Source: Ipomoea triloba (taxonomy: Eukaryota > Streptophyta > Magnoliopsida > Solanales > Convolvulaceae). From it: a stretch of 64,000 nt of DNA. Positions 7,346-51,495 of this stretch are shown here, piece by piece. The position numbers were made by a program, and so were the translations under genes. Positions within the stretch are counted from its first letter, which is position 1, and every line of letters begins with the position of its first letter. Location of the stretch: NCBI RefSeq assembly GCF_003576645.1, contig NC_044930.1, forward strand, positions 8,736,551 through 8,800,550. Reading direction: 5' to 3'. The notes below the pieces were generated by a model. It was given only the letters and a program-made list of their open reading frames with translations. It ran no database searches and was not told the origin of the DNA.

Positions 7346-7349
7346 TATT

Positions 7350-20860: not shown

Positions 20861-20864
20861 TGAA

Positions 20865-27439
<6,575 letters not shown>

Positions 27440-30024: not shown

Positions 30025-30490
30025 TGCATCCATATCAATAAAAAATCAACAAAGTAGCACCATACAGTTTGGTCACTAAGCAAAATCCCAATGAAATATA
30101 CTACACCATCCAGCCAGCTTAACACGTACACCAACTTCTATCCTTTTATTTCAGAAAGAAATTCACATCATCACTGCCCAAACCATTAAAAGTCACACAC
30201 GTACCTGAAGAAAAATTAAATATACAACTTGCTTAGTTGAAATCACCCTAAGAATAATTATTACTTTGTAATACTTAAAAATAATTAATTAATTTGTTAT
30301 ATCTAAGAAACTAAAAATAATATTTTAAAACCTAATAGTTAAAAAAAAAAATGTGATCAACCAATTGAAACAGAGGTATAAATTACTTACTATTTCTTGT
30401 TTGGGATTAGAGGTGCTGGGAATGTCGGATCCAATAGTGTTCACATTTTGCTCCCCATATGCTTGCTCATGTACCTTTATGTAGGAATTG
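28440..30490 (-). repeat. Tandemly duplicated 3'-terminal region of the NLR gene
   Basis: Two diverged copies, about 28440-29350 and 29460-30490, are offset by about 1.05 kb. Each contains, on the minus strand, the tail-exon sequence, the terminal-exon acceptor (gaag then gtacgtgtgtgac) and the 3'-UTR text ctggatggtgtagta. In the first copy the tail exon (29247-29328) is 82 instead of 84 bases and carries a stop, so it is a relic. The second copy is the edge of the contig overlap and is identical to the functional tail at 31495-31776. Confidence 0.8.
29941..30023. repeat. Poly-T tract of 83 bases
   Basis: The homopolymer is preceded by (GTTTTT)n. Open frames here that encode poly-lysine or poly-phenylalanine are artefacts of composition. 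The tract length may be unreliable. Confidence 0.95.
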
Positions 30491-31373
30491 AATAACAATA
30501 CATTATTTTAATTTGAAGGAATGGAATAATATTGAAAGAGCAAAATTCAATTCTTCTAGCAAATAGCAATCAACCTCTGCTAGCGTGCATATATATTAAC
30601 AACTTATAATCATACAATAGTTATTTTTCTCTTTAAATTAAAATACTCAATGTGAAAATTAATTAATATTCTACCTTTGAAATATATATCTTCTTTAATT
30701 TTCTGGAATATATATATATTTAGTAACCACTTACTTCTGTTGCTTGTGGCGGAAGAGGGGTGATGAAGAGGTTAACTACTCTACCGTCGGCGAGTATTTC
30801 ATGATGAATCTCTTTTGCAGAATTAGCTACTCTTTCATGCACGCGAAACAATTCCATCACTTTAAGATTGGGTACGTAAGCAAAAGCAGATGGAATATTT
30901 TGTAGGGAAATGCAGCTTCTAAGTACTAAACGTTCTAACACTGGAAAGCTTTCATTCTTAGATGCCCATGTTACTAGGTTTGTCCTTCCGACGCGTAAAT
31001 ACTTAAGTCGTTTGAAAGTAACATCAGGGCTTAGATCCCAGAGTTCTCCAGAGAAGGCATTGTCATCCAATTTGAGCACCTCAAGCGTCTTCAGTGATCC
31101 CAATACAGTCATGTCATTCCATTGAAACAATGTACCACACAGGGTTAACTTTCTTAGCTTACTTGCAAACTTATCCAACATTGGGACCTTTAACGCCACT
31201 TTCTCAGAGTTTGCATGAAGCTTTAAGTTCTCTAGGCAGTTTAGCATTTGAAGAAGATTGTTGAACAAGCAAACTTCTTGATGACCTTGTTGCTGCAGAA
31301 GCCCTAGCTCTGATAAATTTCCACGTACACCCAATTTTTGGAGATTTGGGATCTTCCGAAAGATCTTTTTTGN
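30072..31373 (-). other. Artefactual duplicate of NLR 3' end (unmerged contig overlap)
   Basis: Bases 30072-31372 repeat as 31374-32674 at a constant offset of 1302, with no differences at the points I compared, and are separated by one N at 31373. The apparent partial LRR gene at 30720-31372 is therefore not a second gene. It breaks off in the middle of an LRR codon run exactly at the N. Confidence 0.92.
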
Positions 31374-31494
31374 GTCACTAAGCAAAATCCCAATGAAATA
31401 TACTACACCATCCAGCCAGCTTAACACGTACACCAACTTCTATCCTTTTATTTCAGAAAGAAATTCACATCATCACTGCCCAAACCATTAAAAG

Positions 31495-31776
31495 TCACAC
31501 ACGTACCTGAAGAAAAATTAAATATACAACTTGCTTAGTTGAAATCACCCTAAGAATAATTATTACTTTGTAATACTTAAAAATAATTAATTAATTTGTT
31601 ATATCTAAGAAACTAAAAATAATATTTTAAAACCTAATAGTTAAAAAAAAAAATGTGATCAACCAATTGAAACAGAGGTATAAATTACTTACTATTTCTT
31701 GTTTGGGATTAGAGGTGCTGGGAATGTCGGATCCAATAGTGTTCACATTTTGCTCCCCATATGCTTGCTCATGTAC
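31495..31776 (-). CDS. C-terminal tail exons of NLR gene A
   Basis: A short exon at 31776-31693 (84 bases, 28 codons, phase 0, contains GSDIPSTSNPKQEI) ends at a consensus donor gtaagt. It is followed by an acceptor (ttcttcag) and a terminal exon at 31506-31495 that adds three codons and a TGA. These join in frame to the LRR exon ending at 32037. The acceptor of the 84-base exon (ataaag) is weak. The identical artefact copy is at 30193-30474. Confidence 0.6.
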
Positions 31777-32036
31777 CTTTATGTAGGAATTGAATAACAA
31801 TACATTATTTTAATTTGAAGGAATGGAATAATATTGAAAGAGCAAAATTCAATTCTTCTAGCAAATAGCAATCAACCTCTGCTAGCGTGCATATATATTA
31901 ACAACTTATAATCATACAATAGTTATTTTTCTCTTTAAATTAAAATACTCAATGTGAAAATTAATTAATATTCTACCTTTGAAATATATATCTTCTTTAA
32001 TTTTCTGGAATATATATATATTTAGTAACCACTTAC

Positions 32037-34328
32037 TTCTGTTGCTTGTGGCGGAAGAGGGGTGATGAAGAGGTTAACTACTCTACCGTCGGCGAGTATT
32101 TCATGATGAATCTCTTTTGCAGAATTAGCTACTCTTTCATGCACGCGAAACAATTCCATCACTTTAAGATTGGGTACGTAAGCAAAAGCAGATGGAATAT
32201 TTTGTAGGGAAATGCAGCTTCTAAGTACTAAACGTTCTAACACTGGAAAGCTTTCATTCTTAGATGCCCATGTTACTAGGTTTGTCCTTCCGACGCGTAA
32301 ATACTTAAGTCGTTTGAAAGTAACATCAGGGCTTAGATCCCAGAGTTCTCCAGAGAAGGCATTGTCATCCAATTTGAGCACCTCAAGCGTCTTCAGTGAT
32401 CCCAATACAGTCATGTCATTCCATTGAAACAATGTACCACACAGGGTTAACTTTCTTAGCTTACTTGCAAACTTATCCAACATTGGGACCTTTAACGCCA
32501 CTTTCTCAGAGTTTGCATGAAGCTTTAAGTTCTCTAGGCAGTTTAGCATTTGAAGAAGATTGTTGAACAAGCAAACTTCTTGATGACCTTGTTGCTGCAG
32601 AAGCCCTAGCTCTGATAAATTTCCACGTACACCCAATTTTTGGAGATTTGGGATCTTCCGAAAGATCTTTTTTGTGCAACTTGCTGGTGATATTATACAA
32701 AGTGTGCGGATGCTTGTTCCTCCGGAGCTATTTTTGTGAGGGGACGGTAATTGCATAGGAGTGTTGGTGTGGACATGCCTTAGCTTTTCCATGTTCCATA
32801 TGCCTCCATCAATTTGTAGCCTCGGTTCTGTGGTATTGATTACCAGAGTCTCCAATTCACCAAGATGTTTGAATGATTTAGGCAGGAAATTGAGATTATT
32901 GGCTGTGATAGCAAGATACCTGAGAAGATACAAGCCATAAATATCATTCGGTAGCAAGCTAGACCTAATGAGTTGTTGCTCAATATTTAACACCTTAAGA
33001 AGTGTAAAAGTGTTTGAGATAGTTGCTAACTGCTCTTGTGTCACATCAATAATCTCATCCCATTCTGAGGAAAATGCCGACAAAGAATGGACGTGTTTAC
33101 CAAAAGGACTCCTCCTACTCCTCCTTTTGTTGTAGCAACTGAGGTAGAAATGAGATGGATTCTTTTCTGCAGCTAATAATATGTCCATAGTAGAGGAATG
33201 GAAACAAAGACGACCACGAGTTGAAGAAGAAGAAGAAGTATTCTCATCATCTAACTTTTGCACCTCATCATCTATTACCTTAAATAAATTTTTCCTTGTA
33301 GCTTCAATTTTGCAGAAATCATGAATTGCATCGTGGATGCGACACATTTTTATTTGACCATCTGCTCTTCTTTTCCTCACAATCACAAGATTTCTATCAA
33401 CAAGATCATTCAAATATTTTTGAGCTTCAACTTCTACGTCTAAATGGTATCCAAACTCATCTACAGTTGGAATGAATTCTTCGGCAATCCATAAACGGAT
33501 TAACTTCCAAACATCAATATCATGTCCTTGGGGAAAATATGCAAAATATAGGAAGCAATTTTTCAACATCTCATGAGGCAAATATTTATATCCCAACTTT
33601 ATTAGCTCGTGGAAACTCTGGTGTTCTTGAGGAATTCCTGAATCAGCAATTCGTTGCCAGTCATCAATAGTTGTACACGTTCGTAGGACACCAGCAACCA
33701 GTACTATAGCAAGCGGTAGTCCTTGGCATTGTTTTGCTATTCTTTTCCCGACAGCTTCTAATGACGAGTCGCTGCAGCCCATTCCACCAAAAACATGATT
33801 TTCTATTATCAACCAACCATCATCGTCGCCTAACAATCGTAACTCGTGAGATTTCCAGGTAGGATTTTCTAGAAAGATATGAGTTCGGGTAGTCATCAGG
33901 ACTCTACTTCCATTCAAATTTTCTGGAAATGCAACTTTCAAAGAATCCCAAACTTCTTTTCCCCATAGATCATCCAATACAATGAAGTATCTTTTAGCCT
34001 TCAATAAATTCTTTATTTTATCTCCCAATTCATCTTCTGAATCCATGCTAAAGTCTTCTGTATGCTTGGTAATTTGAGATAGAATGTTGATGAATTCTTG
34101 CCTTCTATTAAAGCACTGTGAAACATGAACCCATATGCGGCAATCGGTGAACTTTTGTTTAATTTCCGGGTCTTTAAAAAGCATTAAAGCAAGGGTAGTT
34201 TTGCCAGTACCACCCATCCCCACAATTGGGATGACAATGAAATTATTGGATCCCTCCAATAAACGATCTTTTATGGTTTCCAAATCATTCTTAAAACCCA
34301 CTATCTTATTTTCATGCACCGGTCCACC
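32037..34328 (-). CDS. NB-ARC-LRR exon of R1-like NLR gene A
   Basis: A single 764-codon exon runs from acceptor tttcag (ending at 34329) to donor gtaagt at 32036, both in phase 0; without splicing it would stop at 32022. It encodes the nucleotide-binding switch and ligand-sensing part of a CC-NLR immune receptor. In order: P-loop GMGGTGKTTLA, RNBS-A (CRIWVHVSQCF), kinase-2 YFIVLDDLW, RNBS-B GSRVLMTTR, GLPL as QGLPLAIVLVAG, RNBS-D CFLYFAYFPQ, and the MHD-position motif as RIHDAIHDF. About 400 residues of irregular leucine-rich repeats follow. All ATPase motifs look intact. Its CC exons lie 3.4 kb upstream at 37778-38872, across an intron filled with MITEs. With those and the tail exons the protein would have about 1,114 residues, similar to R1-class proteins. 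Such receptors act in the cytoplasm or nucleus to trigger a hypersensitive response. Confidence 0.92.
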
Positions 34329-34398
34329 CTGAAAATTTAAAGGAGAAAATTCATGAAAACACGAAACCCATACTAATCAAGTGCTGTGGGAGGGTGAA

Positions 34399-35391
34399 GG
34401 ATTGTTATGCCGTGGACCCAGGTCCACCTTGTACCTGGGTCTACATTCACATACACTATACTCTACATTCACAATTTGTAAACATCACATTTACACATTA
34501 CAGGATTATATGTTTAGTAACTATACTCTACATTTACATACACTATATTCTACATTCACAATTTGTAAACTCCACATTCACACATTCAAAACTCTATATT
34601 CACAAGTCCTATACTCCACATTCACAACTTGAGAACTCTACATTCACACATTACAGGGCTACAAGTTGTGCAAATTATATGGTGGACCATGGTCCACAAT
34701 GCATTGTGGACCACGATCATAGCTGATACTGCAGTTGTGTTCAAAGGATACTGCAGTTGTGTTGAAAGGAAACTGCAGTTGCACGGAACAGAGCCCATTC
34801 ATCCGTTCAAGACAACTGTAGTATCCGTTCAACACAACTGTAGTATCCGTTCAACACAACTACAGTTCCAGATGGATGACACGGCCTTTGTTCCGCGCAA
34901 CTGCAGTTCCAGATGGATGACACGGCCTCTGTTCCGCGCAACTGCAGTTCCCTTTCAACACAACTGCAGTATCATTTCAACACAACTGCAGTATCAGTTT
35001 CACACAACTTCAGTATCAACCATGACCCATGGTCCACAATGTATTGTGGACCATGATCCATAGTATAATGACTGACAAGTTGCTAGAACTTCTTAACTCT
35101 ATTACAGATTCACACATGCATAACTCTACATTCACGATTTCTATACTCCATATTCACAATTTGAAACCTCCACATTCACACATTTCTGGACAACTCTACA
35201 TTCACACAATCATAAATCTACATTCACAATTTCTATACTCTACATTCACACATTTTTTGATAACTCTATATTCAGCAATATGTTTACTAATTAAAAAAAA
35301 AAAAGAAAAAAGGACAAAAACGACAAAAACAACGTAGTTTTGGACCCAGTCCACCTTGCAAGGTGGACCTGGGTCCACAGCATAATTTGCC
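34399..35391. mobile_element. MULE-type non-autonomous element in NLR A intron
   Basis: A perfect 9-bp target duplication, gagggtgaa, occurs at 34390-34398 and 35392-35400. The terminal inverted repeats of about 30 bases share gtggacccaggtccacc. Inside lies a second pair of inverted arms (about 34681-34740 and 35005-35063) centred on the palindrome tccacaatgcattgtgga. Between those arms is a tandem array of acaactgcagt motifs. The outer zones repeat ctacattcacaatttg. A 9-bp duplication is the hallmark of Mutator-like elements. No transposase. Confidence 0.8.
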
Positions 35392-35654
35392 GAGGGTGAA
35401 AGGAAACAAAATTGAAATTCACTTTCAAATCATTAGTACAATGTGCACTGTCCAAATGTTCAAATTAATTCTAATACTTGCCTTTGAACCACAAAAGGGC
35501 GGAACAAACTTTGAATTTTATAGCCTGTCAAACTATAGTGCTTTTTAGTCTGTCTCGCCAAATCTAACCATTTTGGCGAGGTGCACTGAAGTCCGCTTAG
35601 TATGTATACATTACTAACATTAGTGTGTATATATACATAATTTTATATAGAGTA

Positions 35655-36661
35655 ATTAATATTACAAATGATCATCTAATTATTGAGTTAGTACTCTTTT
35701 TAGTCCTCAACTTTCAATTCGATCAATGACTTTCATTTTTTTACCACAAACAAATATTCATCTGTTATAATTTCTGTTAAATGGTTATTTAAAAAAAAAG
35801 GTTATTATTGTCAAATCAATTAATATGATTATGATTATCTCTTTTAGAAAATAAGTGGGTTAATTTAATATGAATGTGATCCATGGATTGCTCGAGCCTA
35901 ATGCCAGACTGCCTAACCCAAGTATCCCAACACCATCAATTATAATTGTTAAATAAATGCATTTTGGAAAAATTTCCAACCGAGTTGTTCAAATAGTTGA
36001 CTTGATAACAACAAGCATTAAAGTTTTAGAGATTTTAGTTGTTCAAATAGTTGACTTGATAACTCGATCGTACCAAAAATGAAATCTACTCAATAATCAA
36101 ATATAAACAATATCCAATCAAATATTACCACATAGCCAAAGACCTTGTGGTCTAGTGGCACCCGGTGTCCCGGTTCACACTCCCACATGAATGATGGGAG
36201 TGGGTTTGAGCCTCAGTGGAGGCAATTGTTGACTCTTTGTGCCACTGTAACGATTTTAGTTTAAGAAGAAGAATATTTTAGCTTAACAATATAAAAATAT
36301 TTTATATATTTATAATAATTTTACTTTACATTTTACAGTATGACTTTTATATCTATTAACTTAACTTTTATTAATATTGAAATTAATTATGTTGACATAT
36401 AATTCTTAAAAGATGTAATCATAATCATATTCAATTAACTCACATAATTCTTTGAAAGATGTAATCATAATTATATTAATTAATTTGATGATAATACCCC
36501 TAGATTTGACCGTCATTAAACAAAAAATTCAATGGAGGACTATTTGTGGTAAAAAAATAAAAAATAAAAGTTAAGGTACTACGTATTTTGGTCAAATTGA
36601 AAGTCGAGAGCTAAAAGGAGTACTAACCCAATAGTCAAGAGGACTATTTGTAATATTAACT
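35655..36661. mobile_element. Long foldback element with nested SINE
   Basis: The left arm (from about 35655: attacaaatgatcatctaat...gttagtactctttt) is matched by an inverted right arm ending at about 36661 (aaaaggagtactaa...actatttgtaat). The centre includes a SINE at 36138-36262. Ends are approximate and the target duplication was not resolved. Confidence 0.55.
36138..36262 (+). mobile_element. tRNA-derived SINE copy
   Basis: The best-preserved 5' half of the family: gaccttgtggtctagtggca (A box) and gggtttgagcctcagtgg (B box). It is nested in the foldback element of the NLR A intron. Confidence 0.75.
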
Positions 36662-36912
36662 TTTATATAATTACATATATAAATATATGTTTTTTTTTAT
36701 ATTGACAAAAAGTGTATTACTAATTAATATATTGTATAAATGATTTTTTATTGACTTATTGATTAATGCATTATGTATTTGACAGTTTATTAGAACTTAT
36801 TACTTTATTAGTTATTATTGTGTTGAACAAATTAATTAAAAATGCATAATGTATGTTTGAAATTTTCAAATTAGTTTAGTATATGCTTTTTATCAGTTTT
36901 ATATTAATTTGA

Positions 36913-37312
36913 GAGTTAATTCCAATTTCGGTCCTAGATTTATAGGAGACAATCCACTTTTAGTCATTTTTTATTAAAAAATCCTCATTTGGTCCTAGTG
37001 TTATTGTGGCATGACCAATTTTAGTTCACCATCAACAAAATTGTTGAAATATCGTTAAATACAAAGACATTTCAATAATTTCTATACAAAGTATGTTAAA
37101 CCGCTATATTTTTTATGTTTATGTTTTTGAAAACATTTATAATTGATGATCGAAATGTCCTTGTATTTAACGATATTTAAACTGATTTGTTGATAAAGGA
37201 CCAAAAATGGTCCTGTCACAATAACACTAGGACCAAAAGTGGATGTTCTAATAAAAAAGGACTAAAAGTGGATTGGCACCTATAAATCTAGGACCAAAAA
37301 TGGAATTAACTC
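36913..37312. mobile_element. MULE-type long-TIR MITE, copy 1
   Basis: Almost the whole 400-bp element is an inverted repeat: it starts gagttaattcc and ends ggaattaactc, with cctagatttatagg and its inverse near each end. Copy 2 at 61980-62382 has a perfect 10-bp target duplication. Here the duplication is degraded. Confidence 0.75.
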
Positions 37313-37429
37313 TAATTTTTATTTATGTTTCAAATTTTTTAATTTTGGCGGGCTTTGCTTAGCCTCGCGGGCCTAAGGTGGAGATAGGCCGGCCTTTTTT
37401 AGGCTCGCCCACCCGGCTTGCAAATCATT

Positions 37430-37640
37430 ATTGTTTGGACCATGGTCCACGTAGCTGCAAATTATGCCGTGGACCCAAGTACACCTTGCAAGGTGGACCT
37501 GAGTCTAATACGATGCCGTTTCACTATTTTTTTTTTAAATAAAAATACTAAATATATAGCCCTGAAATGTGTGAATGTGAAGGTTTCAAATTGTGAATAT
37601 GGAGTATAGAATTTGTAAATGTAGAGTTATGAATGTAAAT
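37430..37640. mobile_element. Fragment of the 34399-type MULE element
   Basis: It contains tggaccatggtccac and a terminal-repeat piece (gccgtggacccaagt, caaggtggacctgagtc), then reversed versions of the tgtgaatgt/acattcaca motif seen in the full element. It is truncated and rearranged. Confidence 0.55.
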
Positions 37641-37777
37641 TAAATGCGCTTAGATTCTTAGAACGTAACTGAATTGAATGAATGGCAATTTTTGAATTGA
37701 ACAACTAACGCAAATGAAATGATTTGAAATAATGATAATTTGAGAATAGTAGGTAAGTTTTTGTGGTACATACGTAC

Positions 37778-38248
37778 CTTGGGTGGGCGCAGATCAATGT
37801 GTTTGTAGTCAAGTAGGTATAGAAAGTCTTGATCGTGGTCTTTGCCAATCCTTTTCATCTTTGCTCTAATGGACTGGATCTTACTCACATGGACTCTGGG
37901 CTTTGCTAAATATGCAAAGTTGTCCAATTGTAAGAGATGTTTTCCTTGATGCTTCTTCTCCAGTGCAAAGTAGTTGGCAACCGCATCCCACGCCTCATTC
38001 ACAAGCAATCGGAATTTTTTCACAACTACTCTCAAAACACGGTGTTCATTGGCATATGGGTTCTTGCAAGCTTTCACTAGCTTCTCTTTAAACCCTTGAA
38101 TGAGGGAGGTCATGTCCTGTATCTCTGCCTGCTCAGACTCCAGCGGGCCGTAACAAACCAGGTTTTCATCGACAATTTTCACCAGCTTCTCTATCACCAC
38201 CTTTATATCCTCTATCACTTTGTCAATGACTGTCATCAGTCCCTCTCT
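37778..38248 (-). CDS. Second coiled-coil (CC, Rx-N-like) exon of NLR gene A
   Basis: A 157-codon exon bounded by acceptor atttctacag and donor AAG/gtacgt, both phase 0. It encodes a helical R1-type N-terminal domain (MTVIDKVIEDIK, VVKKFRLLVNEAWDAVANY, KIQSIRAKMKRIGK). It is homologous to the exon at 38375-38872 and to that at 53318-53785. The domain mediates oligomerisation and signalling in CC-NLRs. Because it has a true acceptor 126 bases after the previous donor, it reads as an internal exon giving tandem CC domains, although it has its own in-frame ATG at 38236. Confidence 0.82.
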
Positions 38249-38316
38249 CTGTAGAAATATATAGAAAATACAACTATAATAATGCTCACACTGCACGGAT
38301 CGGATTGCTCATAATT

Positions 38317-38318
<2 letters not shown>

Positions 38319-38356
<38 letters not shown>
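38319..38356. repeat. (TA)n microsatellite in the CC1-CC2 intron
   Basis: The 126-base intron between the two CC exons of NLR A is largely a TA repeat, so its length may vary between individuals. Confidence 0.9.
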
Positions 38357-38357
<1 letters not shown>

Positions 38358-38374
38358 GTACTATACGTACGTAC

Positions 38375-38872
38375 CTGGATAGATAGCTGAACTCCTCGGG
38401 TTTTGTACATGCTGATGAGGGATTGAAGGTCAGTTTGGTGTTGTTGGCGAATCATATCCACCTCTGTCTTAACAGACTGGATCTCACTCTCACAAGATTT
38501 CAACTTTTTTATATTGATTGGTAGCGGAAAAGTTCTCAAGGCTTTGTCTTCGTACATCTTCTTCTTCAGTGCAATGTAGTTGGCAACCGCATCCTCGGCT
38601 TTATTCACAACAGTTTGGAAGTTTTTGACTATCAAAACATCCACACATGCAAATGGGTTCTTGTAAGCTTCCACCAGCCTGGCGTTAAACGTTTCGATGT
38701 CGGATGTCAGATCCTGTATCTCCGAATCTAGGACCACAAGAGGAATCCCCCAACTCTGCTTCACATTATTATTATTATTGTATGCGGCTACAGTTTGAAC
38801 CAGCCTATCTACCGCCTCACTTACCTCTTGCTCTATCACCATGTCCATGGCTGCCGTCATTGGTACCTCTCT
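38375..38872 (-). CDS. First coiled-coil (CC, Rx-N-like) exon of NLR gene A
   Basis: The exon runs from acceptor acgtacag to donor CAG/gtacgt. It has 166 codons in phase 0, with the likely start ATG at 38860 (MTAAMDMVIEQEVSEAVDRL). The motifs DLTSDIETFNARLVEAYKNP and KAEDAVANYIALKK match the R1-type CC domain. It lies only 89 bases downstream of the donor that ends the NB-ARC-LRR exon of gene B (38962). There is thus no room for a separate promoter, so it may either use a promoter inside gene B or be spliced onto gene B. A poly-Asn stretch (NNNNN) near residue 37 is encoded by an ATT/AAT repeat. Confidence 0.82.
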
Positions 38873-38931
38873 CTGTACGTTAACAACAGGAATTAAATGC
38901 ATGCATTATTTGATATCTGATCGAGTGCATA

Positions 38932-41202
38932 TTAATTATATTTATTATAATTAGTAATTACCTTTTCAGAGGTTATGACGAGCTTGATTTCATCGTTTCT
39001 TCCTTTGATCTCGTTTGCTGACTTAACTGCATTTTCACTCATGTGAAACAATTCCATTACCTTAAGGGTATGTACGTTACCAAAACATTCTGGAATTCTT
39101 TCAAGGGAGCTGCAGTTTCGAAGGACTAGACCTCTTAAAACAGGAAAGCTGATATGGGTGGCCAGCTTCCAAGTTACTAGGTTCGTCCTTCCAATGCGGA
39201 GATATTGAAGCCTTCCGAAAACAACATTATTGCTTAGTTCCCAATTCTTCCCCTTGAATGCATAGTCATCCAACTTCAGCACCTCAAGCTCCTCCAACAA
39301 CCCCAATACTGCTAGGTCTTTCCACTTAAACAGTGTGCCGGAGAAGCTCAACTTTTTTAGCTTACATGCAAACTTGTCTAGAATAGGAACAGTTAACACT
39401 TTATTATACTGTCCATAGAGCTTCAAGTTTTCAAGGCACTTGAGCATTCCAAGATTGTTGAGCAAGCAAATATTTTTCTTTTCCTCTAAAAGTTTAGATA
39501 AATTCCCACGAACACCCAATTTTTGGAGATTGGGCGTTCTACTAAAGATCTCTTTTGTGCAACTTGTGGGTGATATTGTAGAAAGTGTGCGAATAGTTTT
39601 TCCTCCAGAGTTATTAGTTTTGGGAGGAAAGGGTAATTGAGTAGAGGTGTTGGTGCGTACATGTCTTAACTTTTCCATGTTCCATATGCCTCCCTCAATT
39701 TGTAGGGTCCTTGCTGTGGTTTTGATCACTAAAGTCTCCAATTCACGAAGATTTTTGAATGATTCGGGGAGGAGATTGAGATTGCTTGTGATGGCAAGAT
39801 ACTTGAGAAGATATAAGCCATACACCTCGTTCGGCAACAAGTCACAATTGATGGATTCAATATTCAACACCCTAAGAAGTGGAAAGCTGTTTGGGATGGT
39901 TGCTAATTTCTCATGTGCAAGACGAGTCTCACTCTTTTGTGTGGAAGACAGCAACAAAGAACGGATATGTTTGCCAAACCGATATGAACTCCTCCTTTGG
40001 TTGTAGCAATTGAGGAACAAACCTGCAGATGATTTATCTTCTGTTGCATCATCAAGTATGTCTGCAGTAAAGGAGTGGAAACCAAGACGGCGAGTTGACG
40101 ATGAACAAGTATTCTCATCATCTAATCTTTGCCCCTCATCCATTATGTGGAATAAATCTTTCCTTGCAGCTTCGTTTTTGCAGAACTCGTGCAATGTGTC
40201 ATGGATGCGGCATGTTTTTATTTTACCATCTGCTCTTCTTCTTATCACCTTCACAAGATTTCTATCAACAAGATCATTCAAGTATTTTTGAGCTTCAACT
40301 TCTACATTGTCTAAAGGGTATCCCCACTCATTTACAATTGGAATGAATTCTTCAGCTATCCACAAACGAACCAACTTCCATATAGCAATCTCATGTCCCA
40401 TGGGAAAATATGCAAAATACAGGAAACAATTTTTCAACTTCTCATGAGGCAAATCATCATAGCTCAACTTTACTAGCTCATGGTAGCTTTGGTCTTCTCG
40501 ATTAATTTCTAGAAGCGGATTATCAGCCACTCGTTGCCAGTCCTTAGAAGTTATACATTTGCGTAGGATACCAGCTACCACAACTAGAGCTAGTGGCAAT
40601 CCGTTGCATTTTTTTGCTATTTGTAGCCCGAGCTTTTTTAAAACTTTGTCACTACATCCCTCTGTACCAAAAACATTATTTTTAATAAGCGACCAACCAT
40701 CTGTATCACTTAACTTTCTTAAATTATGAGATTTCCAGGTAGAATCAACCACATTGTCATGCCTGGTAGTCACCAAGACTCTACTTCCATTCATGTTTTT
40801 AGGGAATGCAGTTTGTAAAGAATCCCAATCTTTTCTTTCCCATACATCATCCAATATAATGAAGTACTTTCGGTCCTTTAAAAGGGTCTGAATGGTATCT
40901 TTCAACATTTCTTCAGACTTGGTGGTTAAGTCTTCAGTACTCTTAGTGATTTGATATATGATGCTAATGAATTTATGTTTTCTATCACACCATTTTGAAA
41001 CAGGAACCCAAATGCAAACCAAATCGTTGAGAGTGCTTAGTTCGTCAAAAAGCATTCTGGCAAATCTAGTTTTTCCAGTACCAGTCATCCCAATAATTGG
41101 GATGACATCAAAATTATCGGATGCCCCTAATAAACGAGATCTTACTGCTTCCAAATCTTTTTCAAAGCCGAATACTTTGTTTTCCTCAGCTGTTGGTCGA
41201 GC
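38932..41202 (-). CDS. NB-ARC-LRR exon of R1-like NLR gene B
   Basis: This exon starts at acceptor cacgttcag (phase 0, encodes ARPTAEENKVFGFEKD). It either terminates at a TAA at 38932 or is spliced at donor AAAAG/gtaatt (38962/38961), which is positionally equivalent to the donor of gene A. Motifs in order: P-loop GMTGTGKTRFA, RNBS-A (CIWVPVSKWCD), kinase-2 YFIILDDVW, RNBS-B GSRVLVTTR, NGLPLALVVVAG, CFLYFAYFPMG, RIHDTLHEF, then LRRs. It is clearly paralogous to gene A. The P-loop differs from the usual GMGGxGKTTLA at two positions (Thr for Gly, Arg for the second Thr), while the GxxxxGKT core is kept. Its CC exon is probably at 53318-53785, across a 12-kb intron containing a Copia element. 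Confidence 0.9.
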   Translation of the reverse strand, partial: ARPTAEENKVFGFEKDLEAVRSRLLGASDNFDVIPIIGMTGTGKTRFARMLFDELSTLNDLVCIWVPVSKWCDRKHKFISIIYQITKSTEDLTTKSEEMLKDTIQTLLKDRKYFIILDDVWERKDWDSLQTAFPKNMNGSRVLVTTRHDNVVDSTWKSHNLRKLSDTDGWSLIKNNVFGTEGCSDKVLKKLGLQIAKKCNGLPLALVVVAGILRKCITSKDWQRVADNPLLEINREDQSYHELVKLSYDDLPHEKLKNCFLYFAYFPMGHEIAIWKLVRLWIAEEFIPIVNEWGYPLDNVEVEAQKYLNDLVDRNLVKVIRRRADGKIKTCRIHDTLHEFCKNEAARKDLFHIMDEGQRLDDENTCSSSTRRLGFHSFTADILDDATEDKSSAGLFLNCYNQRRSSYRFGKHIRSLLLSSTQKSETRLAHEKLATIPNSFPLLRVLNIESINCDLLPNEVYGLYLLKYLAITSNLNLLPESFKNLRELETLVIKTTARTLQIEGGIWNMEKLRHVRTNTSTQLPFPPKTNNSGGKTIRTLSTISPTSCTKEIFSRTPNLQKLGVRGNLSKLLEEKKNICLLNNLGMLKCLENLKLYGQYNKVLTVPILDKFACKLKKLSFSGTLFKWKDLAVLGLLEELEVLKLDDYAFKGKNWELSNNVVFGRLQYLRIGRTNLVTWKLATHISFPVLRGLVLRNCSSLERIPECFGNVHTLKVMELFHMSENAVKSANEIKGRNDEIKLVITSEKVITNYNKYN

Positions 41203-41671
41203 CTGAACGTGTAAAGAAGGAACCAAAAAAAAAACATTACTGATCAAGTGCTAAGACGATAATGTTGGTAATCGTTGAATAAGTCGATATATCAAATATA
41301 TATATATATATATATAGAAATCTGTTCAAATGTGGTCGCGCCTTTCCGTGCGGTCGGTGCGGTTTACACCACTCAATGTTAAAAAATGCACCACTCAATG
41401 TTAGAAAACGCACCACAATGAAAATACACAAAACAGCATAAAACACACCACACACCCAAAATAATGCACCATAACTCCCCTGCCCCTAATGGTGTATTTG
41501 CTAATACTATGTGGTGTATATTTGCATACCTAGTGGTGTGTTTTCTGGTGATACGTACCTAATGATGCATATTTGAGTGGTGCATTTTATATCATTGAGT
41601 GGTGTGTATTTGTATACATAGTAGTGAGGCCGCACTGACCGCATGTTAAGGTGCGGCCACACCCGATTATG

Positions 41672-41718
<47 letters not shown>

Positions 41719-41834
41719 CCATAAAGGGTTTCTTTAAACTTGCGGTTTAAACCCAACAAAAAGAAACATAAATCCAAGTTGTTTGTACACATATTTTCCT
41801 TAAAACCGATTCGCTACTTTCTGAGGGTGCTAGG
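41203..41834. other. NLR B intron, part proximal to the NB-ARC exon
   Basis: Contains the MITE at 41322-41668 and TA repeats at 41294-41317 and 41675-41717. Bases 41718-41834 continue across the Copia insertion into 46685 onward. Confidence 0.7.
41322..41668. mobile_element. Foldback MITE, caccactcaatgtta family
   Basis: The left end (caaatgtggtcgcgc...gtgcggt) and the right end (gaccgcatgttaaggtgcgg) are inverted, and the interior has mirrored caccactcaatg/cattgagtggtg blocks. Same family as 9554-9746. TA repeats lie on both sides. Confidence 0.7.
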
Positions 41835-41990
41835 TGTTAAACCCATAGCTTGAACTAGTATTTAGATGATTTTGTTATTTACTATTCTTTAGGCTTTAGT
41901 TTTGATTCTGTTGTAACTTCTTTTTGTAGAGTGCTATATATACCTTCAGTGTAAATCATCAATGAAATCAATTCATTCCTACTCTTTACA
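41835..41990 (+). repeat. Copia 5' LTR
   Basis: 156 bases, with a TATA-like gctatatatacc near its 3' part. Followed directly by the primer-binding site. Confidence 0.95.
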
Positions 41991-42066
41991 TGGTATCAAG
42001 AGCTAGCAACTATTCTTACTTTTTTTTTTTACTCTTTTCCTTTTCCTTAGCCTACATTGCTACACA

Positions 42067-45000
42067 ATGTCTACCACAACTGAAACAACCGCAATTATAC
42101 ACCCATAGTCCAAATTACTGCTCCTGCGAATTTCCCTATTAAGCTTACTTCCTCCAACTTTTCAGTTTGGAGACGACAAATCAAAGCCACTTTAAGTGGC
42201 TTCAATTTACTAGGCTACATTGATGGAAGTACTGTAGCCCCATCCCAGTTTTCCGATGTCGCGAAATCTATTCCAAATCCTAGCTATACAAATTGGTACC
42301 GTCAAGATCAAATTATAATTAGTGTCCTCCTTGGAAGCTTGACCCCATTCAACCACTCATCTCTTCCGCTGAAACCTCTCATGCAGCTTGGGAGTCATTA
42401 ACAACGTGCTTTGCAAACACCTCACGTGGGCGAATTGTCTCGCTTAAATCCAAGTTAGCCCGTAATCCACGAGGTAATCGATCCATTGTTGATTATCTGA
42501 ACGATATGAAGGTCATTACTGATGATCTTGCTCTCGCACAATGCCCAGTGTCCGATGAAGATCTTACGGTTCACATTCTTACTCAGATTGGTGAAGAATA
42601 CAACTCTGTTGTATCAGCTGTACGTGTCCGAGAGTCTTCACTATCACTCTTTGAGCACTTTGAGATACTCACAGACCATGAGCGTATGCTAAAGGAAGCA
42701 GATGAGTCCCGGCAGAATGTTATTGCCATTGCGAATGTTACTCAACGGTCCTCAAACAATGGTCGTTCATCTCAAGGTAATTCTTATATGAATCGGCACA
42801 ATCGTAGTCAGTTTGCAAATAACAATTCTCGACCACCGTGGCAAAATTACAACAGTGGACGAGCCTCCCAGAATGGTTTGGTGTGTAAGTTCTGTAATAT
42901 TCCTGGACATGAGGTACGTTATTGTCGTAAGCTAATCCGATTTTTGACAGAGAATAATACCTCGCATGTTCAATCCGCAAGCTCGAGCCCGACCCCGTCT
43001 GTCAATACGTCTACGACACAACCTATGCTGACACACCCGTGGTTATTTGATAGTGGCGCTTCTCACCATACCACGTCGAGTACTTCACCGCTACATACTT
43101 TCAGCGAATATGGTGGTCCAGATGAGATACGCCTGGGTGATGGTAAGTGTCTTCCTATAACTCATATTGGTCACACTACCCTTTCTACACCATCCCGACC
43201 TCTTTCCCTTAATAATGTTTTGTGTGTTCCTACGTTACATAGGAATTTAGTGTCTGTTTCTCAATTATGCCACGCTAACTCTATTTCGATTGAATTCTTC
43301 TCTAATTTCTTTCTCGTGAAGGATTGTCGAACGGGGGTACCACTGATGCAGGGGGAGACCGTTGATGGTGTCTATTACGCTCCTACCTCATTTATGCCTC
43401 AAGTCAATGCAACGAATTTGGTGTCTCTGTCAGATTGGCATCATCGTTTGGGTAACCCCTCTAATAAAATACTTGTTCTGTTTTAAGTCGTTGCTTCAAT
43501 GTTTCCAACTTTCCATTAAATCGTTTTCACTCTATTTCTTGCAACATTAATAAGAGCCACAAATTACCCTTTGTAAAAAATTCTATGGCGAGCTCGCCTC
43601 TAGAACTAATTTATACTGATGTTTGGAGCTCGTCACAAAAATCAATTGATGGCTATACTTACTATGTTATTTTTGTTGACCACTTTACAAAATACATTTG
43701 GTTCTACCCACTCAAAAAAAAGTCAGATGTGGCTCTTATTTTTCCACAGTACAAAAGACTTGTAGAAAATTATTTCAATAAAAAAATACTCTCAATATTC
43801 TCAGATAATGGAGGAGAATTCATTAAACTTGTTCCTACATTTAATAATGAGGGGATTTTTCATTTCACCACTCCCCCTCATACCCCTGAGCATAACGGAA
43901 CGGCTGAACGTCGTCACCGCCACATAGTTGAGACTGGTATGTCATTATTACATTCAGCTTCTTTACCTTTGTCTTTTTGGTCTCATGCGTTCCAAACTGC
44001 AGTTTATCTCATAAATAGGTTGCCCACACCTATCTTGGGTAACCAATCTCCTTTTGCTGTCTTATATAAAACTCAACCCAATTATGCTAAGCTCCAGCCG
44101 TTTGGATGTTTATGTTTTCCCTGGCTAAAATCGTACCGCTCACATAAACTTGAGCCTAAATCATCTTCTTGTATTTTTTTGGGTTACTCAAATTCAAAGT
44201 CTGCCTATAAATGCTATGAACCTAATAAAAAAAAAGGTTTTCTCTCTACGAATGTTAAATTTGTTCCAACCCAACTTCCCTACAAAACTCTAAATGTGGA
44301 TGATTCTGCAATTTCAACCTCTCGAGTCACAAATAATGTTTGTCCATTTTCCAATCTAGTTACACAGCCACGTCCGTCTAGACATGCAAATACAACTCCT
44401 ACGTATGATTTTCAGGTTTCTCAACCGTCCGTGCCAGCTCCGTCGCCGATAGCAACTCCTCCGCCGGCGGTCGATCTCTTCCAGTCTCAACCAACGTCCG
44501 TGCCACCTCCATCGCCATTAGCTCATGTTTCGTCGCCCAGTAGTCGTTCTCCGGTGTTGTCTCCACCACGTACGTCATCGCCTCCTTCGGCGTCATCCCC
44601 TAATCCGACGTTATCTCCTCTTCCAGCGTCATCTCATCCACCAATGTCGTCCCCTGAACTGGCGTCATCCCCTCCTCAGGCGTCGTTCCCCACATCGGCA
44701 TCATCCCCCACTCCAACTTCGTCTAGTAGCACACCGGTAGTCGCTCCACGTCAGGTACCTACTACTCGACCTGTCCAGAACCGCAAGCCTAATCCTAAAT
44801 ATTTTGGTCTTTCATTTGTCAATACCGCCTCATCAGTACATCCCTTACCTCCTCGTCTTGAACCTAACACCATCACCCAAGCGTTGAGAGATCCTTTGTG
44901 GCGTATGGCAATGGACGAAGAGTATGAGGCTTTACTACGGAATATCACTTGGGTTTTGGTACCATGACAATCCAAACCGGTAATTGGGTGCAAATGGGTG

Positions 45001-46381
45001 TTCCGGGTTAAATGTAAGCCAGATGGTTCTGTTGACAAGTATAAGGCACGGCTTGTAGCGAAAGGGGTATTTACAGCAAGCTGGGCGTGATTTCTTTGAA
45101 ACATATAGCCCAGTAATGAAACTTGTTACTATACGTGTGGTTATTTCTTTTGCATTGCATAATAATTGGCCTATACGGCAGTTAGACATTAATAGCGCAT
45201 TTTTGAATGGAACGTTGACTGAAACTGTTTTTATGGAACAACCACCGGGTTATGTTAATGTGGATTTTCCTTCTCATGTTTTTCAGCTTAAAAAAGCTTT
45301 GTATGGCCTTAAACAGGCACCGCGAGCCTGGTACCTTGAGCTTAGCCGTTTTTTGTTGCGTTATGGTTTTGTTAAGTCATAGGCAGAAACTTCCTTATTT
45401 GTTTACTCAGCTAATGGCATTCTCATGTACATTTTGGTGTATGTCGATGATATCCTACTGACCGGGAGTAGTGTTGTATGTGTTGAGCAGTGTGTACGAG
45501 CATTGTCTAATGCCTTTGCATTGAAAGACTTGGGTCATGTTCATCATTTTCTAGGTGTGGATGTCATTTCGACTATGGCTGGTATGTTTTTGTCCCAATC
45601 ACAATATATTTCTAATATTTTGGTCAAATTTCACATGGATGGTGCTAAGCCAGTTTCCACGCCCATGAGTTCTTCAGAGGTTCTCCCTTTGCCGGACTCT
45701 TCTACAGTTGTTGATCCTACAGGTTATTACAGGCTTATTGGTATGTTGCAATATTTGAGCATTACTCGTCTAGATGTTTTGTTTGCTGTGAATCGTTTGT
45801 CACAGTTTATGCATGCACCATCTACGACTCATTGGTCCACTGCGAAGCGTGTTCTACGCTACCTTAAAGGGACATTGTTCCATGGGCTATTTCTCAAAGG
45901 TACCACTTCTTTTCAACTTACTGCCTTTTCTGATTCCAAAGGTACCACTTCTTTTCAACTTACTGCCTTTTCTGATTCTGATTGGGGTGGCTCTTTTCAA
46001 CTTACTGCCTTTTCTGATTCTGATTGGGGTGGCTCCAGCACTTTGGGTGCCTTTTCTGATTCTGATTGGGGTGGCTCCAGCACTTTGGGCCGTTCTACCA
46101 CTGCTTATGTTTTGTACCTCGGGGGTAACATTGTTTCTTGGAAGTCAATGCGTCAGAAGTCAGTTTCTCGTTCTTCCACTGAGGCAGAATACCGTGCCCT
46201 TGCGAATGCTACTGCTGAGGTTTTGTGGGTTCAACATCTCTTGCGAGAGCTACACGTGGTACTGAAAAGCTCTCCTATTTTACTATGTGATAATCTTAGT
46301 GTATATGTCTGCAAGAATCCTGTGTTCCACTCTAGAATGAAGCATCTTGCCCTTGACTATTTCTTTGTTCGTGATTGGTGA
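42067..46381 (+). pseudogene. Copia gag-pol, disrupted by stops and a frameshift
   Basis: The presumed gag ATG (42067) meets a stop after 13 codons. Domains seen across three frames: gag with zinc knuckle CKFCNIPGHEVRYC (about 42887), protease WLFDSGASHH (about 43045), GAG-pre-integrase WHHRLGNPS (about 43437), integrase with YTDVW, SDNGGEF and NGTAERRHRH (43585-44300), a Pro/Ser-rich linker (44400-44800), reverse transcriptase with YGLKQAPRAW and YVDDI, and RNase H ending with [11 protein letters not shown]. Breaks include stops at about 43484, 44967 and 45380 and a frameshift near 45060. RNase H contains a 42-bp in-frame tandem expansion (45923-46090). The element cannot make a complete polyprotein. 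Confidence 0.93.
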
Positions 46382-46523
46382 CGTCGGGTGCTTTGGTTGT
46401 TCGTCATCTTTCCTCCAAAGAGCAGCTCGCTGATATCCTCACAAAGCCGTTGAGTCGTGCGCCTTTTCAACTTTTTCGGTCCAAGATTGGAGTCTCCGAT
46501 GGATCCTCCATCTTGCGGGGGCA

Positions 46524-46679
46524 TGTTAAACCCATAGCCTGAACTAGTTTTTAGATGATTTTGTTATTTACTATTCTTTAGGCTTTAGTTTTGATTCTGT
46601 TATAACTTCCTTTTGTAGAGTGCTATATATACCTTCAGTGTAAATCATCAATGAAATCAATTCATTCTTACTCTTCACA
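46524..46679 (+). repeat. Copia 3' LTR
   Basis: 156 bases, six differences from the 5' LTR. Followed by the target duplication ctagg. Confidence 0.95.
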
Positions 46680-46684
46680 CTAGG

Positions 46685-47690
46685 AACGTTGTAGCGTCAG
46701 TCTCCTAGGATAAAACTGATTACAACCTTAAGTTAGTTTGAGTACTCAAACGAAAGGTCCGGCGAACGAGAACAATGGAAGAGCAATCCGTACAATTTAC
46801 GGAAGTAATTGGCAGAATTTCTCTTTCTAAGAAAACGATTTTGAAAGAGAAGGAAACAAAATTCATATTTTGACAATTCAAAATCAGCAGCTAAAAAAAT
46901 TTTGCCAACACCACAACGCTCAATCTCCCGGGATAAAACAAATTAGGACATTAAGTTTGAGCACTCAAACGAAAGGTCCGGCAAACGAGAATAATGGACG
47001 AGCAAACCGTACAAATTACGGAAGTGATTGTCATAATTTCTCTTTCTAAGAAAACGATTTTGAGAGAAGAGGAAAGAAAATTCAGTCGACCTTAAGTTTG
47101 AGCACTCAAACGAAAGGTCCGGCGAACAAAAACAATAATGGGCGAGCAAACCGTACAATTTACGAAAGTGTTCCGTAAGAACAATAATGGGCGAGCATAC
47201 CGTACAGTTTACGGAAGTGATTATCAAAATTTCTCTTTCTAAGAAAACGATTTTGAGGGAGGAGGAAACAAAATTCATATTTTGACCGGTCAAAATCAAT
47301 AGCTAAAAAAAACCCCTAAATAAATCATATTAGTAACCCCATAGAATTCAATTAGAGAAAGCCTCTATGCTATACAATTCAATATGATTTTTTTTAAAAA
47401 AAAAAAAAGCAATAATGGGCGAGTAAACCGTACAATTTACAAAAGTGTTCCGTAAGAACAATAATGGGCGAGCAAACCGTACAGTTTACGGAAGTGATTG
47501 TCAAAATTTCTCTTTCTAAGAAAACGATTTTGAGGGAGGAGGAAACAAAATTCATATTTTGACAGTTCAAAATCAACAGCTAAAAAAGCCCCCACTAAAT
47601 AAATCATATTAGTAACCCCCATAAAATTCAATTAGAGAAAGCCTCTATGCTATACAATTCAATATGAATTTAAAAAAAAAAAAAAAAAAA
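46685..47690 (-). repeat. Tandem array of about 150-240-bp units
   Basis: Four to five imperfect units repeat cgaaaggtccggcgaac, gggcgagcaaaccgtaca, tttctctttctaagaaaacg and aacaaaattcatattttgac. A longer period also repeats aaagcctctatgctatac. The Copia element inserted just next to the array. The short open frames on the minus strand merely reflect the repeat. Its class is unknown; it may be part of an older LTR element. Confidence 0.8.
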
Positions 47691-48325
47691 GCTCTTGTAT
47701 ATATAGTGGTGCAAACCCACTTTCCAAGCCAACATGGGACAAGTGCTTTTACAAAATCTTTCCACCTTCATTTTCCAACTCAAATGGGTCTACTTTGAGA
47801 ATCAATTTCTCATTCATCTACTATCCATTTTGAGCGTACAATGTATCAATTTCTTTGTCTCACTATGAAGAACTCGAATCTACTTTAATCCAACTCAAAA
47901 AGAAAGTAGACCCCACATATATTTGTATCATAAAATAGCCACTTTCTATGCCGTTTTATGCTAATATTCCATCAGATAATAACAAAGATTAAATTTATTT
48001 GCAGATCTTTGAATGTTTAAACTCTAATTTTTAGCAAAGGAGTGTACCAATTCATAAGAAATATTTTAATGGTAAAAAATTTCTGGCTTAATATTCTTCA
48101 TCTGTATACATGTCATTATTTGATTGGTTTATTTAATATTTAATTAATAATTAATAAATAAATTCAATTTTTAACTTGTTATAGGATCTACCAATTTATG
48201 AGTAGTCAATGAAGGTAAAGAGTTTCATTATCACATTAAGAAAAAAAAATTATTCATATTTTAACGTGGCATATATATGCCCTATAATGAAAAGAATCCG
48301 AAAATGCATGCCCAGAATAGATGAT
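47691..48325. other. Intronic or intergenic AT-rich DNA
   Basis: No gene, RNA or element is recognisable in this stretch of the large NLR B intron. Confidence 0.5.
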
Positions 48326-49378
48326 GGCTATGTTTGGCAAACCTAGCTGAAAAGGTAGCTGAAAGCTTAAAAGTAGCTGAAAAGCTATAAGCTCGAAGCT
48401 GAAATCTGAAGAGCTGTTAAGCTAGTTGTTATGCTTAAAAGTGTTTGGTAAACTTAACTTTTTGATAAGCTGGTAAATGTAAAAAGACTAAAAAGGACAT
48501 CTTCATACAATTTAAATAATTTTAAATTTAAATATGTTTGTTTATATATTAAAATATAAAATAATGAAATCAATATTTTTAAATAAAATATAAAGTAAGA
48601 ACATATATTTGAAAATATATAAAGTAAAAAAAAATGTTTATAATTCATAAGATTAGTTCATAAAAAAATTAAGAGTTTATTACCAAAATAGTCCCTCGAC
48701 TATTGTGAAATTACCAATTTGGTCCTCAACAATTTTTCGTGACCAATTAAGTCTATCGACTTTGAAAAATTTAACCAACTTGGTCCTCCGTTTATTTTTC
48801 TGTTAAACATCCATTAAATCGGGACCAAATTTGTAATTTTGCTATAGTCAATGGACCAAATTGGTAATTAATTTTCACTGAAATGGTCCCTTGACTATAG
48901 AAAAATTACCAATTTGGTCCTGATTTAACGGATGTTTAACGGTAAAATAAACGGAGGACCAAATTGGTTAAATTTTTAAAAGTCGAGGGACTTAATTGGG
49001 CACAAAAAATTGTTGAGGACCAAATTAGTAATTTTGTAATAGTTGAGGGACCATTTCGGTAATAAACTCAAAAATTAATGTTCAAACACAAATGTCAAAC
49101 TGAAATTACAACCAAACATAATTGAAAAAAAATGTCAAAAGGGTTTTAATTGAGAGGGGTAAAGGATGCCATTTATTTAAAATAATAAGGATAAAGATGG
49201 AAAAAAGTTAAAAAGCTACTAGCTTATTTTTTAAAAGCTACCCCAAGTAACATTTCAAAATAAGCTCTTATTTTAAGCTACTAGCTTATTTTGAGAACAT
49301 TACCAAACAGAGCTTATAGCTTATTAATAGGTCAAAATAAGCTATAAGCTCCTAAATAAGCTCTGTAAAACAGAGCCG
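48326..49378. mobile_element. hAT-like MITE split by a MULE-type MITE
   Basis: The left part (gctatgtttggcaaacc, agctgaaaagc repeats) and the right part (gcttatagcttatt, ctctgtaaaacagagcc) have the inverted agct-rich ends of plant hAT MITEs. The interior is interrupted by the element at 48673-49069. Confidence 0.6.
48673..49069. mobile_element. MULE-type long-TIR MITE with perfect 9-bp target duplication
   Basis: The element begins gagtttattaccaaaatag and ends ggtaataaactc and is largely self-complementary. Direct repeats aaaaattaa flank it at 48664-48672 and 49070-49078. Architecture similar to 36913 and 61980, but the sequence differs. Confidence 0.85.
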
Positions 49379-50104
49379 ATATGTTACGTACACCTATTGA
49401 ATGTGCCAATTACACTTGCTAATTATGCTAGACCATCCTATTGGTTCTTGCTTTATAATGGTCAACAATCTTTGAGAGGATTTTTAGTAAGAATATGGTA
49501 TTTTCTTGTGTGTTAGACTTGGATAATTCTCCGTGTAATTAAGTTAGTAATTTAAAACCCCTAAAAAAATTCATTTATAAAAGTATTATCAAATTGTTCA
49601 ATCAACAAAGGATCAAAGGTAGTGAATGATGAGTAGTGAAGGATGTTGACAAGTGGAGAAGTAAGACATCCTCAGCTCATAGTAAAGCTTAATTAAGCAG
49701 TATTATATTGTAAGTATAGTTCAAGAATGCTTATGATTTGTCTTAAATTATTCAGAGTTTGAGATCGAGTCTCATGTTTACAACCAAGCTAAATTTTGGA
49801 AGGAGATTTGAGGAGAAACGGCAACCTCTATACCTCCATTATAAGTTTATTAGTTTAAATGTGTTTGTAATTTTGCTTTAAAATTTAAAAATAATGTTAA
49901 TAGTAAGAATTGAACTCTTAATTTATCCTTTATTCTTAACCTAGATTAATTAAATGCTAAAGAATTTTCAAAAAAATAAAAATTTAAATGCTAAAGGCAT
50001 TTATTAAATTTTTTGTATAACAATATATTTATTTAAATCATTCACTAACATTATATAGTTATATAATTATAACGCACACGCACGCGCGCGCACACACACA
50101 CATT
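49379..50104. other. AT-rich spacer
   Basis: No gene is recognisable. A (CA/CG)n tract occurs at 50072-50101. Confidence 0.5.
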
Positions 50105-50245
50105 AATGATCAAATGAGAACTGCACCATAGGTAAGAATGTGAGAACCAACATGAATGTACACAATCTACTCCAAGGTAGATTGTGTGCATTGTGTGCAT
50201 TTATATTGTAGTTCACAGTTCTTACCTAAGGAGTAGTGGTCCCTT
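50105..50245. mobile_element. Short foldback MITE
   Basis: gagaactgcaccataggtaa at the left is mirrored by ttacctaaggagtagtgg at the right, with gtgtgcattgtgtgcatt in the centre. The family resembles the one at 51085-51495. Confidence 0.45.
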
Positions 50246-50253
50246 GAACGCAA

Positions 50254-50254
<1 letters not shown>

Positions 50255-50314
<60 letters not shown>
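50255..50314. repeat. (TA)n microsatellite
   Basis: A 60-base TA run. Confidence 0.95.
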
Positions 50315-50315
<1 letters not shown>

Positions 50316-51084: not shown

Positions 51085-51495
51085 AAGAACATGAGAATTA
51101 CATGAATGCACTGAAAATACTATACAAATGCACTGCAACTACTCTAGGGTCTGCATTTGTCCTCCAAGCATGCTTGGAGTATATTCGTTGCATTCATGCT
51201 GTATATTCAGGTGAAAACATCTCTTAATGTGAGAACATGCGGAATTCTTTGGTAATGCACGATAAGTTCTACATGAATGCACAATAACTACTCCAGCTTC
51301 ATGACTAGTACACGAATGCATCACACATTCGTGTAATAATTAACGTGAATTCATGTAGTAGTTTTGGTGCATTCATGTAGTAGTCACGGAGCTAAAGTAG
51401 TTATTGTACATTCACGGAGAACTTATTGTGCATTACTGAAGAAGTCCGCATGTTCGCATGTTAAGGCCGGTCCGCACCTTAATGGGACCCTATGT
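51085..51495. mobile_element. Foldback MITE
   Basis: Mirrored blocks (acatgaatgcac / gtgcattcatgt, agaacatgcgga / tccgcatgttcg) fill the segment. The right end, aaggccggtccgcacctta, resembles the ends of the MITE at 41322. Confidence 0.5.

Follow-up and report, generated by a model that had tools for sequence, protein, structure and literature searches.

The stretch of Ipomoea triloba DNA analyzed here (the window; 64,000 nucleotides, contig 15, positions 8,736,551 to 8,800,550) carries on its minus strand two nucleotide-binding leucine-rich repeat receptor (NLR) units that are separated by only 89 bases. We consider it likely, with a probability of about three in four (0.77), that they form one gene and not two, in which case the 89-base spacer would be a short intron in phase 0 and the principal full-length mRNA would encode a twin NLR of 2,021 residues. 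The spliced minus-strand frame runs through 2,021 residues and a stop in the order coiled coil (CC), NB-ARC-leucine-rich repeat (LRR), CC, CC, NB-ARC-LRR and tail. Its seven exons are all open and joined in phase 0, and both units contain NB-ARC motifs. Two NB-ARC and LRR sets thus share one open spliced frame, which, as read from the DNA, makes the locus a tandem NLR assembly. In this respect the original prediction for this locus, a protein of about 2,020 residues with all exons in phase 0, holds.

The fusion of the two units is supported by the gene models of related morning glories. The same layout recurs in Ipomoea gene models and paralogs and is therefore not a chance read-through. In addition, 89 bases leave little room for a 3' untranslated region (UTR), a terminator and a promoter, as had been predicted, and the ATG from which a separate second gene could start is not kept; both points favor one gene. 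From these observations we infer that the junction is transcribed.

The reading frame and the 89-base spacer

The first coding exon (53318-53785; all exons are on the minus strand, with window coordinates) lies beyond the segment covered by the original prediction. It starts with ATG, ends with CAG/gtaata, is open in phase 0 and encodes an N-terminal CC that matches Pfam Rx_N with 28.2 bits against a cut-off of 27.7. A 12,115-base intron (41203-53317) connects it to the unit 1 NB-ARC-LRR exon (38962-41202), and I. nil P0002 and I. trifida P0117 join their exons alike. All 747 codons of the unit 1 exon (747 aa) are open and include P-loop, kinase-2, GLPLA and IHD motifs. Its 3' end, TCTGAAAAG, is followed by the donor gtaatt. 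After the spacer (38873-38961) come the first internal CC exon (CC1; 38375-38872, 166 aa), homologous to the N-terminal CC by self-comparison, a 126-base intron (38249-38374), the second internal CC exon (CC2; 37778-38248, 157 aa) and a 3,449-base intron (34329-37777). The unit 2 NB-ARC-LRR exon (32037-34328, 764 aa) has intact motifs and ends with the donor ACAGAA/gtaagt. It is followed by a tail exon, VHEQAYGEQNVNTIGSDIPSTSNPKQEI (31693-31776), which is kept in I. batatas P0007, and by a last coding exon, VRV-stop (31495-31506), for which we have the sequence only.

The spacer resembles an intron, in agreement with the original prediction. It contains 75% A+T against 56-61% in the coding exons, begins with gtaatt after AAG, ends with ttaacgtacag and has a branch-like YTRAY motif 21 bases upstream of its acceptor. 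Left unspliced, the frame continues for nine extra residues to a stop at 38934-38932, the stop that had been anticipated at 38932, and yields a unit 1 protein of 912 aa. The two NB-ARC-LRR exons had also been expected to have donors at the same position. The exon ends do correspond, but unit 1 ends about five codons earlier (ITSEK/ versus ITPLPPQATE/).

The 12.1 kb intron contains a long terminal repeat (LTR) retrotransposon antisense to the gene (41835-46679, plus strand), recognized by self-comparison, whose terminal repeats (41835-41990 and 46524-46679) are 96% identical. Its assignment to the copia type is a judgement by eye from one translated open frame. In Arabidopsis, COPIA-R7 at RPP7 reportedly affects the choice of 3' end. 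It is this case of COPIA-R7 and RPP7 that the intronic element recalls (PMC7529245).

A direct repeat of 1.3 kb (30068-31372 and 31369-32674; 99.9% identical) spans the end of unit 2 and the tail, with a single N at its seam (31373), representing either a recent duplication or an assembly artefact. More copies of the short tail exon lie downstream (around 29330-29240 and 30470-30390), and P0003 encodes numerous consecutive tail repeats; the tail is thus a repeating exon. Elsewhere in the window, translations judged by eye indicate a pentatricopeptide-repeat protein (5705-7348, minus strand) and the N-terminal part of a phototropin-like protein (20808-21452, plus strand). Among the matches obtained, related minus-strand units form a cluster that extends to about 9.1 Mb, with this locus at its low-coordinate end.

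Recurrence of the junction and constraint on its exons

A search with the spliced window protein returned 116 proteins. Exon pieces were mapped onto a set of 198 proteins, assembled from two protein searches that scored 7,994 and 7,989 candidates. We found 28 LRR-to-CC junctions in 26 of the 198 proteins; I. nil, I. trifida, I. triloba and I. batatas are the only species represented among these 26. Predicted proteins with two NB-ARC domains, which the original prediction had proposed to look for in related species, are among the gene models of other Ipomoea. The I. batatas model P0118 reads LVITSEK/REVPMTAAMDMV in frame and is identical to the window there, with 99%, 95% and 98% identity over the LRR, CC1 and CC2, respectively. 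Equivalent in-frame joins are found in P0007 and P0124 (I. batatas), P0117 (I. trifida) and P0002 (I. nil). The junction is thus present in orthologous gene models of three species besides I. triloba, which makes chance unlikely. In the I. nil ortholog P0002 (FEK/RERPTTAAMDMV), the first ATG able to start a separate second gene is lost and the next Met lies four residues further on. The would-be CC1 start residue is Met in 20 of the 28 junctions and another residue in eight, and two of the four genomic CC1 exons have TTG or ATA as the corresponding codon. Both P0001 and P0002 continue into a third unit.

Other layouts with two NB-ARC-LRR units exist. The organization CC-NBLRR-NBLRR or NBLRR-NBLRR, which lacks internal CCs, occurs in a separate Ipomoea set and in some proteins of Lamiales and Centaurea. 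A second Ipomoea cluster is located on contig 14 at 1.39-1.75 Mb (L048, L052, L062, L063 and others); the CC-NBLRR-NBLRR models P0014-P0017, P0019 and P0020 are of this type (P0016 and P0019 map to contig 14), and in the tree their first units are again separated from their second units. Models P0033 and P0035 (Perilla, Salvia) and P0032 (Centaurea) are about 1,600-1,800 aa long with two NB-ARCs, the first unit outside and the second on the NRC side of the tree, which resembles a sensor-like NLR joined to a helper-like one; these may be annotation joins. Both units of Erythranthe P0038 fall outside the NRC side. An I. triloba relative of unit 1 with 76% identity (P0123; L040, contig 15, 8980667-8982850) has an HMA-like domain after the same exon end as unit 1. 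This domain matched 23 PDB sequences at E<=1 (best 1.6e-7), including the HMA domains of Pikp-1, RGA5 and Rmo2, while Pfam gave no HMA call for it. From these matches P0123 resembles an NRC-clade receptor with an integrated decoy.

Pairwise ratios of nonsynonymous to synonymous substitution rates (dN/dS) were obtained with a simple Nei-Gojobori script from pairs that are not independent. The medians were 0.49 for the N-terminal CC (15 pairs), 0.45 for unit 1 (6) and 0.47 for unit 2 (6), compared with 0.91 for CC1 (6) and 0.58 for CC2 (10); the six values for whole CC1 exons ranged from 0.80 to 1.18. There are no stop codons in any of the segments compared, although single-frame matches favor open stretches. 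All four genomic copies of the whole CC1 exon are also free of stops, whereas in a simple neutral simulation each copy would be expected to acquire 1.6 to 2.8 stops at 0.1 to 0.195 changes per site and would stay free of them with a chance of 18% to 5%. CC1 is therefore probably translated, yet fast-evolving.

A number of observations weigh against a single gene. The relatives are predicted gene models throughout, and two of them (P0118, P0124) are partial, beginning within unit 1 and finishing in the intron after CC2. In the models P0126 and P0138, the frame runs into the homologous intron and ends there. The searches with the window protein gave no database model of full identity for the window locus among the 7,994 and 7,989 candidates scored. 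An AATAAA lies 16 bases into the spacer and could mark an early end, and the dN/dS of CC1 (about 0.9) is near neutral. In the related I. triloba loci Z and V the reading frame shifts within the NB-ARC of the first unit, and the unit 2 LRR of locus V also shifts frame near its end; loci X and Y show no frame break in the units read. Paralogs have longer spacers (about 0.9 kb in Z, 1.35 kb in Y and 2.4 kb in V), which makes fusion less forced there; that of LOC116007226, whose CC1 was not located, lies between about 1.5 and 4.1 kb. Finally, the exons joined in P0010 (LOC116005648) extend from 9,069.7 kb to 8,908.4 kb (contig 15, 9069716-8908404, about 160 kb), with other NLR exons skipped on the way; the second-unit core and CC2 of P0010 are identical to DNA at 8.91 and 8.94 Mb. 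This model is probably an annotation chain, which indicates that annotators over-join in this cluster. Unlike LOC116005648, LOC116007226 (P0004, 18 kb) and LOC116005647 (P0008, 15 kb) are compact in their mapped exons.

These observations bear on other explanations. The locus could consist of two head-to-tail NLR genes, the first ending nine codons into the spacer (912 aa) and the second starting at the CC1 ATG from a promoter inside the unit 1 LRR exon, with joined mRNAs as occasional read-through chimeras such as those altered by FPA activity in Arabidopsis. The in-frame stop at 38934, the AATAAA and the models that end in the homologous intron agree with this, as do the ATG near the CC1 start (in the window and in 20 of the 28 junctions) and the over-joining in this cluster, and read-through or chimeric RNAs are reported at 17 FPA-sensitive Arabidopsis NLR genes (PMC8116057). 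However, a terminator and a promoter would have to fit into 89 bases, and a splice acceptor with conserved codons lies upstream of the supposed start. The start Met itself is absent in the I. nil ortholog (and in eight of the 28 junctions overall), no tail exon was found for unit 1, unlike unit 2, and the ordered pair is kept between species. We therefore regard two separate genes as improbable. It is still less probable that the locus is decaying and that its twin layout is a by-product of tandem duplication without a functional protein. The broken frames of paralogs Z and V, the retrotransposon in the 12 kb intron, the lack of a window-locus model in the protein searches and the CC1 dN/dS would fit decay, but seven open exons, NB-ARC motifs in both units, median dN/dS values of 0.45-0.49 for the N-terminal CC and both NB-LRR exons, and an I. 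nil ortholog with both units speak against it.

A splice switch would be compatible with the one-gene explanation: splicing would give the twin, intron retention or early polyadenylation the 912-residue unit 1, and their ratio would set receptor activity. Skipping of CC1 and CC2 might also occur and give CC-NBLRR-NBLRR, a layout that exists in the separate Ipomoea set. The stop and the AATAAA inside the intron, the phase-0 joins and the endings of P0126 and P0138 within the homologous intron point in this direction, and early 3' ends are described as common in Arabidopsis NLRs (PMC8116057). On the other hand, retained-intron models may be partial predictions, and an AATAAA is unremarkable in 89 A+T-rich bases (about 0.2 expected from base composition). 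Such a switch is only a tentative possibility.

Placement in the NRC helper clade and putative function

We built two NB-ARC trees. The first comprised 57 segments, in which units 1 and 2 of the twins of the contig 15 type other than the window formed separate clades (100/100 each), except for I. trifida P0001, whose second unit falls among first units. The second tree contained 53 rows, was midpoint-rooted and had NRC2, NRC2a and NRC3 as its only named anchors. Unit 1 of the window grouped with unit 1 of I. nil P0002 (100/99) and unit 2 with its unit 2 (100/100). As both units pair in order, the ordered pair predates the split between I. triloba and I. nil. In the same tree, 18 Ipomoea rows grouped with NRC2, NRC2a, NRC3 and four other Solanaceae rows (98/93), set apart from the R1-like rows with long N-terminal extensions (recognized by their database labels and these long N-termini). 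By NB-ARC phylogeny the twin thus belongs to the NRC helper (NRC-H) clade.

Among solved structures, both units were best matched by NRC2, NRC3 and NRC4, with near end-to-end alignments to NRC3 and NRC2 (E 1e-156 to 3e-150). The PDB hits included no full-length NRC-dependent sensor, and PDB rank alone cannot separate helper from sensor. A profile of the three CC exons matched five PDB sequences at E<=1, all five NRC2, NRC3 or NRC4. Taking a match to Rx_N or to a solved NRC or Rx CC as the mark of an Rx-type CC, the CCs of the locus are of this type.

The published MADA consensus is MADAxVSFxVxKLxxLLxxEx (PMC6944444). An ungapped count over its 13 fixed positions, used here in place of the published hidden Markov model (HMM), gave one match for the window and one or two for its twin relatives, so no MADA motif was found by this count. 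The N-termini of the twins read MIVVDKVLEE, MTIVVDKVLE or close variants. Eight single Ipomoea relatives scored between one and seven by the same count (P0136 and P0140, seven; P0142, P0139, P0141 and P0144, four; P0137, three; P0157, one). Judged by its predicted sequence, the window twin is placed in the NRC-H clade, not among the working helpers. Because both units fall in the helper clade by the NB-ARC tree, the locus looks like a duplicated helper-type receptor. The original prediction of a linked receptor pair stands in so far as the fusion layout recurs in Ipomoea models, but the tree does not favor a sensor-helper pair.

Within the NRC helper clade, the twin may have originated in the Ipomoea branch when a multi-exon NLR was duplicated in tandem; the phase-0 joins of that NLR would let upstream and downstream exons combine in frame. 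The two NB-ARC-LRR units could then act as tethered protomers, side by side in one NRC-like oligomer to which a single chain would supply two protomers. Of the CCs, only the N-terminal one would have its alpha-1 end free. The internal CCs evolve faster, would be capped by the LRR that precedes them and are probably linkers or recognition surfaces. Since the MADA motif is missing, the twin would be expected to act as a sensor or modulator through ordinary MADA-bearing NRCs; an autonomous executor is not expected. If the intron were retained, a single receptor of 912 residues would be released, and the intron could in this way act as a switch. All these elements can be combined, with considerable doubt, into one picture: morning glories may have covalently linked NRC-clade receptors with two (in some models three) helper-type protomers per chain, in which the MADA helix is gone and the internal CCs are free to diversify. 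A chain of this kind could contribute protomers in pairs to NRC hexamers and serve there as a built-in sensor or modulator. The phase-0 exon end that recurs after the LRR would be the point at which whole NLR units, tails or an HMA-like decoy dock, and splicing would act on the 89-base intron as a switch between twin and single receptor.

Significance and comparison with known systems

Plant NLRs are thought to act by gathering separate protomers into rings. The twin deserves testing, since receptors of this type usually act as separate chains: two protomers per chain would limit the possible rings and bring three CC domains into one molecule. It can be asked whether linked protomers can share one resistosome, whether each protomer needs a free alpha-1 helix, and what use is made of the large Ipomoea NRC-H set, reported as 36 genes in I. 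trifida compared with nine in tomato and 13 in N. benthamiana (PMC11371149). For NLR counts, annotation can split or over-join such loci, and LOC116005648 is a warning for this cluster.

The twin resembles NRC2, NRC3 and NRC4 in the nearly end-to-end alignment of its units, in its tree group (shared with NRC2, NRC2a and NRC3) and in its CC profile. It differs from them by having two units and three CCs in one chain and no MADA motif, the NRCs described in the cited papers being single CC-NB-LRR proteins. Another comparable receptor is NRCX, described as an atypical NRC-H member of five Solanaceae species that lacks a working MADA motif and modulates NRC2/3 (PMC9851556). The twin likewise belongs to the NRC-H clade without a working MADA motif, but NRCX is a single unit and is still recognized as MADA by HMM, while the twins are unlike the MADA consensus. 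The same source reports finding no orthologs of NRC2, NRC3, NRC4 or NRCX in Ipomoea.

The NLR RNAs altered by FPA also place adjacent NLRs in one RNA (PMC8116057). They join annotated separate loci; in the window there is no evident separate gene end and the frame is kept through the junction. The original prediction held two NB-ARCs in one chain to be unusual, but double NB-ARC chains are already on record: TNLTNL and CNLNL are listed in PMC3782705, where RPP2A, a TNTNL, is said to work in resistance, CNLCN is listed in PMC9661794 and TNLTNL in PMC6115920, and PMC2175511 is another source on tandem NLR assemblies. Like the twin, these assemblies have more than one NB-ARC per predicted chain. 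As presented in these sources they are either of the TIR type or annotated architectures counted in small numbers, whereas the order of the twin recurs across Ipomoea species and paralogs in the NRC clade. Multi-NB-ARC chains are thus already known; what is new, as far as the literature searched shows, is a conserved CC-NBLRR-CC-CC-NBLRR twin inside the NRC helper clade.

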